The translations under genes and the position numbers were made by a program. Below, piece after piece: positions 19,775-33,325 of a stretch of 64,000 bases of DNA. Under the pieces are notes generated by a model, which worked only from the letters and a program-made list of their open reading frames with translations, was not told where the DNA came from and ran no database searches. Within the stretch, counting starts at the first letter, position 1; each line of letters starts with the position of its first letter. This DNA comes from Halopiger goleimassiliensis (GTDB taxonomy: Archaea; Halobacteriota; Halobacteria; Halobacteriales; Natrialbaceae), in NCBI RefSeq assembly GCF_000455345.1, contig NZ_HG315691.1, positions 1 to 64,000 of the forward strand. Direction: 5' to 3'.

Positions 19775-19838
19775 GTGGTCAGGGAGGGCTATCGAATCAC
19801 GGATGAACCCTCTGCGTTCATTACTCCATCGTGAAAAT
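19775..19838. repeat. Decayed, internally deleted copy of the tRNA-Met-end unit
   Basis: About 45 bases from 19775 (GTG..AGGGAGGGCT..CGAATCACGGA..CTGCGTTC) align with the start of the 155-bp unit; in the stretch after GGGCT I count 21 of 27 positions identical. The last dozen bases (ATCGTGAAAATG) align with its end (ATCGGAAAAGTG). The middle of the unit is missing. This is the copy farthest from the tRNA and the most changed, which suggests that it is the oldest. Confidence 0.6.
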
Positions 19839-19993
19839 GCCCGGGGAGGGCTCCGAACCATGGAAAGACTCACTGCGTTCGCCTTTCCTGCCTTGCGCTC
19901 ACTCCGTTCGCGCAAGACCTACGGGTTCGGAGCGAGCCGAGCACTTTTCCGAGAGTTGTCACTCGTCTTCGACTCGTGACGAATCGGAAAAGT
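19839..19993. repeat. 155-bp unit carrying the tRNA-Met 3' end, copy 1
   Basis: The unit starts with GCCCGGGGAGGGCTCCGAACC, which on the minus strand is the T arm and 3' acceptor strand of the neighbouring tRNA-Met. It then has three inverted repeats: GGAAAG/CTTTCC, CTTGCGC/GCGCAAG and a 12-bp GCACTTTTCCGA/TCGGAAAAGTGC pair (19941-19952 and 19984-19995). By reading, it differs from copy 2 by a single base (ATGG versus ACGG after the tRNA part). There is no protein-coding gene. Confidence 0.85.
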
Positions 19994-20148
19994 GCCCGGG
20001 GAGGGCTCCGAACCACGGAAAGACTCACTGCGTTCGCCTTTCCTGCCTTGCGCTCACTCCGTTCGCGCAAGACCTACGGGTTCGGAGCGAGCCGAGCACT
20101 TTTCCGAGAGTTGTCACTCGTCTTCGACTCGTGACGAATCGGAAAAGT
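19994..20148. repeat. 155-bp unit carrying the tRNA-Met 3' end, copy 2
   Basis: Tandem to copy 1 with exactly the same 155-base period; it ends where the real tRNA 3' end begins (20148/20149). Its large inverted repeat is at 20096-20107 and 20139-20150, so the right arm includes the tRNA discriminator and last two acceptor bases. Viewed from the tRNA, each unit lies immediately downstream and ends with a fresh copy of the tRNA 3' end, the arrangement left by site-specific insertion at a tRNA gene or by unequal exchange. Confidence 0.85.
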
Positions 20149-20299
20149 GCCCGGGGAGGGCTCCGAACCCTCGATCTCCGCATGTCCCAGGTTCGAGGCT
20201 CGGCGGTCCTCGTTCGGGACACGGAGGCTTCCAAGGCGAACCGCACCGAATCTCTGAACCCTATGAGTGCGGCGCTATGTCCAGCTAAGCCACCCGGGC
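20148..20299 (-). tRNA. tRNA-Met (anticodon CAT) with a 78-nt intron
   Basis: On the minus strand the acceptor GCCCGGG (20299-20293) pairs with CCCGGGC (20155-20149), with A as discriminator at 20148. The anticodon stem CCGCA/TGCGG encloses the loop C-T-CAT-A-A, which is interrupted after position 37 by an intron at 20184-20261. The T arm is GAGGG-TTCGGAG-CCCTC. GGTTC near the intron start pairs with GAACC near its end, consistent with a bulge-helix-bulge splice site. Haloferax elongator tRNA-Met is known to carry an intron of similar size (about 75 nt), so this is most likely the elongator rather than tRNA-Ile2. Mature length 74 bases. Confidence 0.92.
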
Positions 20300-23156: not shown

Positions 23157-26100
23157 TCAGCACTCGCTCCAGCCACAGGACTCGCAGGTCTTGCAGCCTT
23201 CCGAGTAGTACAGCGACAGCGAGCCACACTCGGGACACTCGGGCGACTCGCCCGCGTCGATGAGGTCCTGCGTGGCGTCCCCGGATTCGCTACTCGCGGC
23301 GGCCGCACCGCCGTCGGTCTGACGGTCGACAGCGCCGGCGTCGGCCGACTCCTCTAGGGTCTGCTGGGTCGGGTACGGCTTGTCGATCTCGTCCTCGAGG
23401 TAGCGACGCATCGCGGTGCCGATGGCGTCCGGGATGGACTGGATCTGTTCGCCCTTGTCCCAGGCGACCTTCGGCGAGCGCGTACCGCAGAGTTCGTCGA
23501 CGATCTCCTCGGGGTCGACGCCCGAGCGCAGCGAGGTCGAGATGACTTTCGCCAGGGCCTCGGTGAAGGAGTTGGTGAAGCCGCCGGAGTGGCCGATGTT
23601 CGCGAACAGTTCGAACGGCTGGCCGGTCTCGGGGTCCTCGTTGATCGTCACGTAGACCTTGCCGTAGCCGGTGTCGATGCGCTGGCTGACGCCCTGCAGG
23701 GCGTCGGGTCGTTCGCGTTTCTCGGTGAAGTCGACGTGAACCGGCTTCTCGCCGTCGTCGCCGACCAGTGAGTCGACGTCCGCCTCGAGGACGTCGGCGA
23801 CCTCCTCGCTCTCGAGGAACTCCTCGAGGCCGCCGAAGATCTCGTCGATCTGCTCGACCAGGGCCTGGGCGGCCTCGGTCTCGTCGGCGAAGTCGGTGTT
23901 CTCGGCGCGAGTCGTCAGCACCTGCTTGCTGCGGGTGCCGTCGCGGTAGTAGGTGACGCCCTTGCCGCCGTGCTCGTAGATGTACTCGAAGACCTCCTTG
24001 GCGTCCTCGAGCGTGGAGTCGTTGGGTGCGTTGACGGTCTTCGAGATGGCGGAGTCGACGCCCTCCTGGCAGGCGACCTGGACGCCGGCGTGCTCTTTCG
24101 CCGAGAGGTCGCCGGTCGTGACGAACAGTTCGCCGATGGCGTCGGGTACCGTCGAGAGGCCCTCGACGCCCTCGAACTGGTTGGTCGCCATCTGCTCCTG
24201 GGCCTCCTCCTTGACTGCTTCGACGTCGATGTCGTTGTCCTCGAGGACGCGCAGGAAGTAGTCGTCGAACTCGACGAGCATCTCGTCGCCCTGGACGTCG
24301 TCGGAGACGTTCTTGTAGTAGGCGACGTTGTAGATCGGCTCACAGCCACCGGTGGTGTTGCCGACCATGCTCGTGGTGCCGGTCGGCGCGATGGTCGTCG
24401 TGTTGTGGTTCCGGATCGGGAACCCCTCGGCCCAGTCGTCGGCGTCGAGGCCGGTCTGCTTCTCGAACCACTCGCGGTACTCGGTTGGGTTGGCGTACTT
24501 GGACTTGTCCCACTCGTCGAAGCTGCCCCGCTCCTCGGCGAGTTCGTGGGAGGTCCACTTCGAGGTGTGGTTGATGTGACGCATCAACTGGCGCGCGACC
24601 TCGTTGGAGGCCTCGCTGCCGTACTCCATGCCCAGCTGAATGTACAGCTGGGCCAGCCCCATGATTCCCAGCCCGATCTTGCGCATCTCCCGGACCTTCT
24701 GCTCGATCTTCTCGACCGGGAAGTCGCTCATCGTGACGACGTTCTCGAGGAACCGCGTCCCCATCTCGATGCGCCGATCGAACTCCTCGAAGTCGACGGC
24801 CTCCGCGAGGAAGGCGTCGACGGCGTCCTCGAGCGAGTCGTACTCGTCGCCGTGCTCGTCGTACCAGACACGCCAGTCGGGTGCGTCCAGGTCGGCCAGC
24901 GTCGAGAGGTTGATGTGCCCGAGGTTACAGGCCTCGTACTCCTCGAGTGGCTGTTCCCCGCAGTTGTGGACGACGAGACCGTTGGCAACGAACGAGTGCG
25001 TATCCGGCTCGGTCAGATCGTAGACTGCTTCGTGTCCGTCGTGTTCGACGGCTTCGACGGTCGCCTCGAATCGTTCGCTGTACGGACCGCGGTCGTACTC
25101 CGAGAGACGCTGCTCGAGTGCGTCGGTCTTGTAATCGAGCAGGAACCCGATCTCGTCGGCGAACCGCTCGAGGTTATCCTTGACGATGACGAGTTCGTGC
25201 TGATCCTTCGTCTCGTACTCTTTCGTTCCCCCGTTGCCGTCTGAGAGTTCTCGAGTCCCTGCTTCCTTGCGGTTTTCGTAGATCTTGCTGGCGATTCCGA
25301 AGTTGAGGAGGAGCTGCTGGACGTCGCCGAGCAGATTAGCATCCGAACTCCACAGGCGAACCGAGACGCCTTTTTCGACGTTGCCCTGAACGCATCCGTC
25401 CGCAGTGAACAGCGACTGGAGGAATCCGCGCGCCATCTCCTCACTGCCGCGCATCACTGCATCGGGGACCTGGAGTTTGTCCTCTGTGAGGCCGACTTCC
25501 TCGGCGTACTCGTAGAGGCGAGCAGATCGAATGCGCTGTTCGATCGCCTGCGCACCGCGGTATCCGTCGTCACGAGTTATCTCGTTGACTCCGATGTCGT
25601 AGTTTGCGTTACCGAGCGGCTCGCGAACGACCTCGTTGACGTCCTCAGCGAGAGCTTCGGAAATCTCGGCGTCCTCGTCGTAGAAGTTCAGCACGGCACG
25701 TTCTTCACCGTGCTTGAGGTGGCCGTCTCCGACGAGCCAGCCGAGCGTTCGGCCTTCTTCGGCGGTTCCGTGTTGGCCGAATTCACCCTTACGATTCTGA
25801 ATGTGGACTGTATCGCCGGTATCGAGATCTTGTGCTTCGACCCAACCGTCGTCAGTCATGACGCGGTGGTCTGCAGTGAGTCGAAGCTCGTACCCTTCCT
25901 CGGTAGTCAGCTTGTAGACGTCCTTCTCGCCGGTCTTGTAGACGCTACTAGCTTCCTTCACGCGGTCCTCACTGAGACGTCCGTCGACTACGACATCACG
26001 CGCGATCCCTCGCTCGTACAGCTCTTCGGCTTCGACTAGACCGTTTTCCGTGCTGATGAGCGTATCTCCGGTGACACACGGATTCGTCGCGAGAATCCGG

Positions 26101-27377
26101 TGATCGGGATGTTTCTCGACGTCGAAGGAGTGTTGTTTGTTGACGCGCTCGAGGTAGATCACGCCGGGTTCGCCGTTCTCGTGGGCACCCTCGACGATGT
26201 CGTCCCAGAGTTCCTCGGCGGGGACGGACAGTTCCTCGCCGACCTCGACGTGCTCGCCGAGGCCGAACATCTCGTAGAGCTCTTTGGTTTCCTCCGTGGC
26301 GATGTGGGGCTCGCCCGTGCGCGGGTTCGTGAAGGTGAACTCCTCGCCGTTCTGCAGGGCCTCCATGAAGTCGTCGGTGATGCCGACGGAGATGTTGAAG
26401 TTCGAGAGGTGCCCCTCGACGGCGTTGCGGAGGTGCTTCGGAACGCGACCCTCCTCGTCGATGAGGTCGCGAGCCTCCTCGAGAGCTTCCTGGAAGGAGG
26501 TGTGCGTGTAGTCGTCGGGGTCGTTCAGGCGCAGCGTCTCGGCCAGCGAAACGTCCTTGTTCTTGGCGTGAATGAACTGGATGACGTCGGGGTGAGAGAC
26601 GCGCATGACGCCCATCTGTGCGCCACGTCGCGCGCCGCCCTGGGCGATCGTCTCGCACATCTGGTCGTACGTGCGCATGAACGTGATCGGGCCGCTGGCG
26701 ATGCCGCCGGTCGAGCCGACCGCGTCGCCGTACGGGCGCAGCCGCCAGAAGGCATAGCCCATGCCGCCGCCGCTCTGGAAGACCTGGGCGGCCTCCTTGG
26801 CGGTCTGGTGGATGTCGTCGATGTCGTCCTCGGGGGAGTCGACGAAACACGCCGAGAGCTGCTGCAGTTCGTCGCCAGCGTTCATCAGCGTGGGCGAGTT
26901 CGGCATGAAGTCCAGGTTCTCCATCATCTCCTGGAACTCGTCGGCGGTCTCTTCGACGTGCTCGCGAATGCCGTCAGGGAGTTCGGGGACGATCGTGTCG
27001 TACGCGAACTTGTTGACGTTGTAGATAGATAGCGTGGTTTCTGCGTCGTCGCCCGCGGTAGTCCCCGCACCGAAGACCTCCTCGGCGAGTTCGTCGCGTC
27101 GCGGGTGGTCGGGCTTGAGCTGATCGGGCGTGACCGTGATCTCGGCGTCGCGCTTGCGGGCCTCGAAGACGGCCTCGGCCAGCGCGATGTTCTTCCCGAC
27201 GCGCTCGAAGAGGTCCTCCTGCTCCTCGATGAGGTCCCCGTCCGCGTTCTTGCGGAGATAGCGGGCGGGGAGGATGTTGTGGTACGCGTTTCCGGTCAGG
27301 CGCTCCTCGAGCGTCTCCCCCTCCGTCCGCTTGATCGGAAGCGTGAGCTCCTCCGCAGTGATGTCGTGCTGGCTCAT
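23157..27377 (-). CDS. nrdJ: Adenosylcobalamin-dependent ribonucleotide reductase (class II) with intein
   Basis: The 1406-aa precursor makes deoxyribonucleotides from ribonucleotides using vitamin B12. The extein has the class II features: the first redox cysteine in LQQLSACFVDSPED (near 177), the SGGGMGYAF loop, MRTYDQMCETIAQGGARRGA, and the thiyl-radical site Asn-Pro-Cys-Gly-Glu, split by a 372-residue intein after Pro433. After splicing the protein is 1034 aa. The C-terminus has a four-cysteine zinc ribbon (CPECGSLSLYYSEGCKTC...C). No ATP-cone is evident at the N-terminus. The start at 27377 gives MSQHDITAEELTLPIKRTEG, normal for haloarchaeal homologues. Activity depends on protein splicing. 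Confidence 0.95.
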   Translation of the reverse strand: MSQHDITAEELTLPIKRTEGETLEERLTGNAYHNILPARYLRKNADGDLIEEQEDLFERVGKNIALAEAVFEARKRDAEITVTPDQLKPDHPRRDELAEEVFGAGTTAGDDAETTLSIYNVNKFAYDTIVPELPDGIREHVEETADEFQEMMENLDFMPNSPTLMNAGDELQQLSACFVDSPEDDIDDIHQTAKEAAQVFQSGGGMGYAFWRLRPYGDAVGSTGGIASGPITFMRTYDQMCETIAQGGARRGAQMGVMRVSHPDVIQFIHAKNKDVSLAETLRLNDPDDYTHTSFQEALEEARDLIDEEGRVPKHLRNAVEGHLSNFNISVGITDDFMEALQNGEEFTFTNPRTGEPHIATEETKELYEMFGLGEHVEVGEELSVPAEELWDDIVEGAHENGEPGVIYLERVNKQHSFDVEKHPDHRILATNPCVTGDTLISTENGLVEAEELYERGIARDVVVDGRLSEDRVKEASSVYKTGEKDVYKLTTEEGYELRLTADHRVMTDDGWVEAQDLDTGDTVHIQNRKGEFGQHGTAEEGRTLGWLVGDGHLKHGEERAVLNFYDEDAEISEALAEDVNEVVREPLGNANYDIGVNEITRDDGYRGAQAIEQRIRSARLYEYAEEVGLTEDKLQVPDAVMRGSEEMARGFLQSLFTADGCVQGNVEKGVSVRLWSSDANLLGDVQQLLLNFGIASKIYENRKEAGTRELSDGNGGTKEYETKDQHELVIVKDNLERFADEIGFLLDYKTDALEQRLSEYDRGPYSERFEATVEAVEHDGHEAVYDLTEPDTHSFVANGLVVHNCGEQPLEEYEACNLGHINLSTLADLDAPDWRVWYDEHGDEYDSLEDAVDAFLAEAVDFEEFDRRIEMGTRFLENVVTMSDFPVEKIEQKVREMRKIGLGIMGLAQLYIQLGMEYGSEASNEVARQLMRHINHTSKWTSHELAEERGSFDEWDKSKYANPTEYREWFEKQTGLDADDWAEGFPIRNHNTTTIAPTGTTSMVGNTTGGCEPIYNVAYYKNVSDDVQGDEMLVEFDDYFLRVLEDNDIDVEAVKEEAQEQMATNQFEGVEGLSTVPDAIGELFVTTGDLSAKEHAGVQVACQEGVDSAISKTVNAPNDSTLEDAKEVFEYIYEHGGKGVTYYRDGTRSKQVLTTRAENTDFADETEAAQALVEQIDEIFGGLEEFLESEEVADVLEADVDSLVGDDGEKPVHVDFTEKRERPDALQGVSQRIDTGYGKVYVTINEDPETGQPFELFANIGHSGGFTNSFTEALAKVISTSLRSGVDPEEIVDELCGTRSPKVAWDKGEQIQSIPDAIGTAMRRYLEDEIDKPYPTQQTLEESADAGAVDRQTDGGAAAASSESGDATQDLIDAGESPECPECGSLSLYYSEGCKTCESCGWSEC
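24963..26078 (-). mobile_element. Intein with LAGLIDADG homing endonuclease in nrdJ
   Basis: Precursor residues 434-805 (372 aa). Block A is CVTGDTLISTENGLVEAEEL, with Cys1 as nucleophile; block B is RLTADHRVMTDDGWVEAQDL with the conserved Thr-x2-His; blocks F and G are AVYDLTEPDTHSFVANG and LVVHN, ending in His-Asn. The +1 residue is Cys806. Two dodecapeptides, TLGWLVGDGH near intein residue 111 and RGFLQSLFTADG near 217, mark a DOD-type homing endonuclease, so the element may still be mobile. Removing it joins ..ILATNP to CGEQPLEEYE. Confidence 0.95.
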
Positions 27378-33116: not shown

Positions 33117-33191
33117 GGGTTGGTGGTCTAGTCTGGTTATGACACCTCCTTGACATGGAGGAGGCCGGCAGTTCAAATCTGCCCCAACCCA
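33117..33191 (+). tRNA. tRNA-Val (anticodon GAC)
   Basis: GGGTTGG (33117-33123) pairs with CCAACCC (33184-33190), with A as discriminator. The D arm contains GGTCTAGTCTGGTTATGAC, the anticodon loop CTTGACA holds GAC between the CCTC/GAGG stem, and the T arm is GGCAG-TTCAAAT-CTGCC. No intron. The encoded sequence has no CCA, as usual in haloarchaea. It lies just upstream of an inverted repeat that begins at its last base. Confidence 0.95.
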
Positions 33192-33244
33192 TTTCTCAGC
33201 GACATCATGCGGCGAGCGGAGCGAGACGCTCGTCGCTGAGAAAT
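33191..33244 (+). repeat. 13-bp inverted repeat starting at the tRNA-Val 3' end
   Basis: ATTTCTCAGCGAC (33191-33203) and GTCGCTGAGAAAT (33232-33244) are perfectly complementary over 13 bp. The 28-base loop contains a second CGAGCG/CGCTCG pair. The left arm begins at the tRNA discriminator base. It may act as a terminator or be the edge of a small inserted unit, in parallel with the 12-bp inverted repeat at the 3' end of tRNA-Met. Confidence 0.7.
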
Positions 33245-33268
33245 TGTTACGGAAGATTCGAACTAGAC

Positions 33269-33325
33269 CGAGGTTCTGCGCCGAAGGCGCAGGTTCTCGG
33301 GCGCAGTTCAAATCCCCCGACCTCG
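33269..33325 (+). other. tRNA-like fragment able to fold into a three-way junction
   Basis: CGAGGT (33269-33274) pairs with ACCTCG (33320-33325). Inside are CTGCGCC-gaa-GGCGCAG (33276-33292) and CGGG/CCCG (33298-33319) around a loop containing the T-loop-like CAGTTCAAATC. That 11-base string is identical to the T arm of tRNA-Val 135 bases upstream (33169-33179). It could be a decayed copy of the tRNA 3' half, a pseudo-tRNA or a small structured RNA. Expression unknown. Confidence 0.4.

Follow-up and report, generated by a model that had tools for sequence, protein, structure and literature searches.

Directly behind an elongator tRNA-Met gene in the window (the whole 64-kb stretch of DNA that was analysed) we found a tandem array of gene-less hairpin units, each tied to the 3′ end of the tRNA. 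It belongs to a larger family of hairpin cassettes, which lie behind many tRNAs and are nearly confined to the Halobacteriales within the phylum.

The array consists of two units and the decayed remnant of a third (Table 1). The two units follow the tRNA directly on its 3′ side on the minus strand, have no genes inside and agree at 154 of 155 positions, being one base apart. The tRNA gene was called by ARAGORN only with introns allowed, and was missed without them. The exact 21-nt 3′ end of tRNA-Met (the tail, GGTTCGGAGCCCTCCCCGGGC) has three sites, D1 in the tRNA gene and the copies closing the two units, and a degenerate fourth copy with 6 edits (~19777-19797) terminates the remnant. The first-pass annotation had recorded tandem 155-bp units at this tRNA and a farther, diverged third copy that had lost its middle. 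Both observations are real and correctly placed.

Table 1 Features of the tRNA-Met array and of the second family unit in the window.
Feature	Position in window	Strand	Description	Basis
Elongator tRNA-Met (CAU) gene	20148-20299	(-)	intron ~20184-20261 (~78 nt), anticodon 20263-20265	ARAGORN with introns
D1	20149-20169	(-)	21-nt 3′ end in the tRNA-Met gene (3′ part of T-arm and 3′ strand of acceptor)	exact pattern search
Unit 1	19994-20148	(-)	155 bp; hairpin A, inverted tRNA-end copy, hairpins C and D, direct copy D2	
Hairpin A, unit 1	20097-20149	(-)	outer stem 13 bp, GA/GA mismatch, GAA triloop; abuts tRNA end	folds
I	20079-20097	(-)	inverted tRNA 3′-end copy (GCTCGGCTCGCTCCGAACC), pairing partner of D2	folds and covariation
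Inner hairpin C	20045-20073	(-)	GTCTTGCGC-GA-AC-GGA-GT-GA-GCGCAAGGC	
Inner hairpin D	20017-20043	(-)	GGAAAGGC-GA-AC-GCA-GT-GA-GTCTTTCC	
D2	19994-20014	(-)	exact tRNA-Met 3′-end copy, closes unit 1	exact pattern search
Unit 2	19839-19993	(-)	155 bp; closes with exact copy D3 (19839-19859)	
Decayed third unit	19775-19838	(-)	64 bp; start of hairpin A and degenerate tRNA-end copy, middle gone	
Second family unit	33192-33324	(+)	partly decayed; hairpin A, inverted copy, hairpin, degenerate direct copy; behind tRNA-Val(GAC) 33117-33191	

From the tRNA outward, the order of parts is hairpin A, inverted tail I, inner hairpins C and D, and direct tail D2. I and D2 form a long stem, stem B, which encloses hairpins C and D. 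The inner hairpins share one plan: a stem, a tandem GA/GA mismatch, two base pairs and a GNA triloop. The inverted repeats reported in the first pass are real and correspond to hairpin A with its stem next to the tRNA, stem B, and hairpins C and D. The hairpin motif occurs four times in the window, only in units 1 and 2 and always on the tRNA strand. Compared with shuffled sequences, the folding of the unit had a z of -4.4 as DNA and of -5.4 as RNA (0/200 shuffles each).

The same architecture is shared with many other tRNA genes, including the tRNA-Val in the same window, which the first pass had overlooked. Among all tRNA loci found in the genome of the window, the gene’s own 21-nt tail recurred no more than 450 bp downstream, with three mismatches or fewer, in 23 of 43, whereas the tails of other tRNAs matched in 6 of 1808 comparisons (Fisher p ~1e-35). 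Upstream, the own tail was found for 1/43, a tandem tRNA-Asp pair which also counts among the 23 downstream cases. Most of the 23 show hairpin A, an inverted tail, an inner hairpin and a direct tail; across the family, the number of inner hairpins per cassette is one or two. A pattern of gapped inverted and direct tails was present in 46 of the 53 sampled Halobacteriales genomes (at most 25 matches each) and in 6 of 242 genomes from elsewhere in the phylum; the reversed control pattern gave 0 matches in these genome sets. The fractions 23/43 and 46/53 are the unbiased counts, several loci having been picked via model matches and not at random. Thirty pattern loci were examined: 24 followed a same-strand tRNA whose tail matched the copy (at most 6 mismatches in 21, mostly exact), and a 25th had a tRNA tail match with 8 mismatches. 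Hairpins behind tRNAs were sense in 54 cases and antisense in 5, and were ~46-fold denser there than elsewhere. The unit had been regarded earlier as a tiny, unusual element; gene-less and tied to the tRNA 3′ end it is, but it is no lone oddity, being a member of an order-wide family with conserved structure.

A search with the tRNA-Met locus retrieved counterparts in Natrialbaceae-like relatives and in other families. At tRNA-Met, the units of relatives are 134-171 bp long and divergent in sequence, with the same fold. With a covariance model, units were detected in many of 125 family genomes, the strongest matches being nearly all at tRNA-Met; named carriers include Natronorubrum, Natrialba, Natronobiforma, Halorientalis, Halomicroarcula, Halapricum and Halorhabdus. 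Following weaker matches, we found arrays downstream of tRNA-Phe, -Pro and -Arg, each carrying the tail of its own tRNA. In four other genomes, a small sample chosen for well-scoring tRNAs, units stood behind tRNA-Arg(TCT), Lys and Gly, and none at the few Ala tRNAs examined. Across 45 aligned units, in an alignment fitted to the structure and hence biased in its favour, double changes affected 28 of 38 pairs, with 206 compensated cells, which 0 of 500 shuffles reached. Slid structures, used as a control, collapsed in the same test. There is little doubt that covariation backs the fold, since these controls and the effect sizes outweigh the alignment bias.

Comparison of arrays shows that the cassettes are gained and lost as whole units between tail copies, that those at a greater distance from the tRNA are older, and that similar cassettes occur across genera. 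The number of units at tRNA-Met varied between 0 and 3 among relatives. In one pair of genomes (G099 and G101) the arrays were exactly one unit apart, between tail copies, so that a filled and an empty site differ by exactly one element. The distal remnant common to both is 66 bp long, with 91% identity, and the flanks beyond it were not alignable. Halorientalis pallida carried two identical units where H. persicus had a different one, 70% similar, again with a distal remnant common to both. Among arrays with at least two copies, the proximal tail was better preserved in 23 and the distal one in 7, and both equally in 12 (p 0.005), in agreement with the stratified record envisaged in the first pass. 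The nearest relative of a Met unit was often in another genus (for example 90% vs 67% within the genus, with several similar cases); part of this likeness could come from ancestral arrays that were sorted differently.

Equal counts in relatives and a unit found nowhere else had been named earlier as grounds for abandoning the insertion reading; the counts differ, and related units lie behind many other tRNAs. That reading, repeated insertion at the tRNA or unequal exchange, stands as far as the layered unit bound to the tRNA end is concerned. For the duplicate units in the window, recent duplication of a single resident unit is the best reading, rather than two separate insertions, and insertion by a recombinase is something we infer.

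We see an even chance that the array is made of gene-less DNA cassettes (“tRNA-tail cassettes”) that are anchored at tRNA 3′ ends and recombine there. This explanation draws on the recurrence of own over foreign tails, the order-wide occurrence, the covariation, the DNA-like pairing described below and the strand bias, as well as on the presence or absence of whole units, the nearest relatives in other genera and the viral ends found at the tails. The crossover site would be the 21-nt tail, and the site recognised would be the folded hairpin of inverted and direct tail. Cassette insertion, deletion and carriage may be provided in trans by tyrosine recombinases of tRNA-targeting viruses. The SNJ2-type integrases of haloarchaea target a tRNA 3′ end (PMC8371274). 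The two identical Met units would have arisen recently through exchange between tail copies. More speculatively, matching at a new tRNA could start from the universal T-loop sequence GTTCRAATC and be completed by palindrome correction.

As in integrated elements, direct repeats of the tRNA end lie at both borders of the unit. In haloarchaea, tRNA 3′ ends serve SNJ2-type and other tRNA-targeting integrases as target sites, and elements integrate at the same tail copies: viral or mobile elements were found at the tRNA’s own tail in two genomes (G102, G097) and at a downstream tail copy at two loci (L003, L062). SNJ2-type elements, however, are kilobases long and carry an integrase gene, whereas the unit, of 134-171 bp and of a length that is not a multiple of 3, has no coding content. 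Against the cassette explanation count the lack of an integrase or any other gene in or adjoining the unit, the absence of the unit from known phage and plasmid records, and the very small substrate that a 155-bp double-stranded circle would offer to an integrase. Persistence at the same tRNAs (Arg-TCT, Lys, Gly), with absence at the few sampled Ala tRNAs, would also fit a host function.

A rather unlikely alternative is that the arrays are a by-product of mutation, with fold-back (template-switching) synthesis making the tail copies, followed by quasi-palindrome correction and unequal exchange, and with nothing selected or mobile. The alternation of direct and inverted copies with hairpins between them and the Watson-Crick-only stems are as expected from such a process, and the identical tandem pairs, at tRNA-Met here and in H. 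pallida, resemble plain duplication. However, the same motifs (AGTCGCAG, GNA triloops and GA/GA mismatches) recur in the hairpins of different tRNAs, indicating that these hairpins are related. The GA/GA mismatches persist, though correction should remove them. Distant genera carry the units, yet these stay nearly within one order, and the nearest relatives of units cross genera.

It is also unlikely, in our view, that the unit is a structured RNA co-transcribed with the tRNA, either processed or acting as a switch in which the inverted copy takes either the tRNA tail or the decoy D2 as its pairing partner, tuning folding or 3′ processing. The strong covariation, the same set of tRNAs across several families and the rttR RNA annotated in an analogous repeat of E. 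coli speak for it. So does the strict strand bias: since the hairpin motif is strand-specific, a single strand folds. We count this among three lines that favour folding of DNA, although strand specificity by itself would fit RNA too. The other two are the base pairs and the loops. In the stems of the units there were 42 G-U against 54 A-C combinations, compared with 26 against 2 in the tRNA acceptor stems of the same genomes (p = 2e-6). Hairpins C and D taken alone gave 11 G-U and 10 A-C (p = 0.002 against acceptor stems), and the GA hairpins 3 and 3 (p = 0.03). At the foot of hairpin C a U-G pair is conserved in 37/42 units; it was left out of these counts and is the exception to the DNA-like pairing; it fits the RNA reading more easily and counts against cassettes of DNA. 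Covariation was present, without the excess of G-U that wobble tolerance in a structured RNA would bring. GNA triloops made up 43 of 75 unit loops, and GNRA tetraloops 0. GNA triloops closed by C-G are very stable mini-hairpins in DNA. Whole-unit turnover, sister species with different cassettes and the tolerance of 0-3 copies also disagree with a structured RNA, and a scan of the haloarchaeal unit against Rfam yielded no family, with no RtT match even at E = 1. Indirectly, the Watson-Crick-only stems, the GNA triloops and the tandem GA mismatches show that what folds is single-stranded DNA of the tRNA-sense strand. A kink-turn was considered for the CGGAG/CGGAG internal loop; on inspection, the surplus bases of the second strand did not fit. 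Other units have GCTCC, fully paired, or GCGAC in place of this loop.

That the units are remnants of viruses or plasmids integrated at the tRNA attachment site and decayed to their ends is very improbable and largely refuted: genuine proviruses and elements do use the tRNA-Met tail, but their ends differ in sequence from the units, the units fold alike everywhere, no phage record matched the unit, plasmid records gave only two tRNA-Met genes (on annotated haloarchaeal replicons of 0.8-1.0 Mb), both without it, and in G102 the unit is separated from the tRNA by a 44-kb element and, being outside that element, is not that element. The exact tail occurred in one viral contig (L365), an unrelated head-tail provirus that ends at tRNA-Met and has no unit. 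A viral scan with a generic inverted-tail pattern was not specific among the matches listed. A common element end (ACTYATCAAATTCTTTACATGCCC) was seen at tRNA-Met in many genomes (L017, L021, L024, L027, L342-L361).

Among known systems, the closest case to the tRNA-tail cassettes is the tyrT/tyrV - rttR (RtT RNA) repeats of E. coli, of 178 bp, judging by an architecture that is the same and does not imply homology. In both, gene-poor repeats immediately follow a tRNA in tandem, and every repeat finishes in the tRNA 3′ end and has an internal inverted tail copy that pairs with the direct one. In E. coli K-12 we read the closing tRNA-Tyr tail as AATCCTTCCCCCACCACCA, the inverted copy as GCGGGGAAGGAT and the inner hairpin as CGAGCGCCAGCGAG; the whole repeat folds no better than shuffles (z -0.6). 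The E. coli repeat occupies one locus, includes the CCA and overlaps both an annotated RNA and the small gene tpr, whereas the haloarchaeal units occur at many tRNAs, vary in length and type and are apparently exchanged between genera. The haloarchaeal units are an order-wide family, as opposed to one E. coli locus.

Integrons hold attC cassettes in tandem after a fixed site, the newest proximal, and recombine them at a strand-specific, folded single-stranded site. The haloarchaeal units resemble them in tandem order behind a fixed site, in the proximal place of the newest and in the folded strand, and differ in having no genes and in having a tail in place of the attC core boxes; the tails read GTTCRAA or GTTCGGA, with C and not R at base four of the core GTTRRRY / RYYYAAC. 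REP/PATE elements and IS200/IS605-type hairpins are also short and gene-less, with strand-specific imperfect DNA hairpins, and insert without copying their target. The units, in contrast, contain the 21-nt tRNA tail copied in both orientations. A wider proposal, possible though doubtful, is that these are order-wide, integron-like cassettes without genes, whose site is the folded single-stranded hairpin of direct and inverted tail, re-matched at each tRNA, with E. coli tyrT as a lone bacterial member of that class. A literature search for a haloarchaeal tRNA-tail repeat returned no description; an earlier report may exist.

The 3′ ends of tRNAs are a common landing site of mobile DNA in microbes, and the sequence behind them is usually ignored. 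In one archaeal order, related strand-specific hairpin cassettes fill much of this space. They also place the E. coli tyrT repeat, long known but isolated, in a wider context. Should the cassettes prove to be recombination sites, they would account for the origin of tandem attachment sites and represent a natural single-stranded-DNA recombination substrate in archaea. Annotators and predictors of integrase sites should expect several tail copies per tRNA.

Some further repeats were noted. In arrays behind tRNA-Phe (L084 in G016, L093 in G093, L072 in G124) two unit types alternate, one of which contains both the anticodon arm of tRNA-Phe and its T-arm, whose loop is interrupted by two hairpins; G016 shows a tandem duplication of a unit pair. 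A related ~57-bp double-hairpin module lies in frame within conserved genes (L066, L069, L075, L085, L091, L097; from position 1201), named by reading as peptidyl-prolyl isomerase, UvrA, acyl-CoA ligase and Kae1, where it encodes ...SASEASGGSSDERSESDG...; it is alike in kind to the palindromic elements of Rickettsia. R1-based matches in protein genes, which form part of a wider double-hairpin repeat, were set aside. A separate dispersed repeat (GCGCGCAGCGAC...GGAGGGTGGGGAGG) with the same kind of double hairpin is located away from tRNAs (L068, L080, L082, L083, L086).

The tRNA-Met gene sits on a contig of 875,838 bp (~876 kb; G000:C2) in a three-contig genome. Elsewhere in the window (23157-27377), an ORF of 1406 aa resembling a ribonucleoside-diphosphate reductase contains, by reading, a candidate intein (CVTGDTLISTENG...VVHNC).
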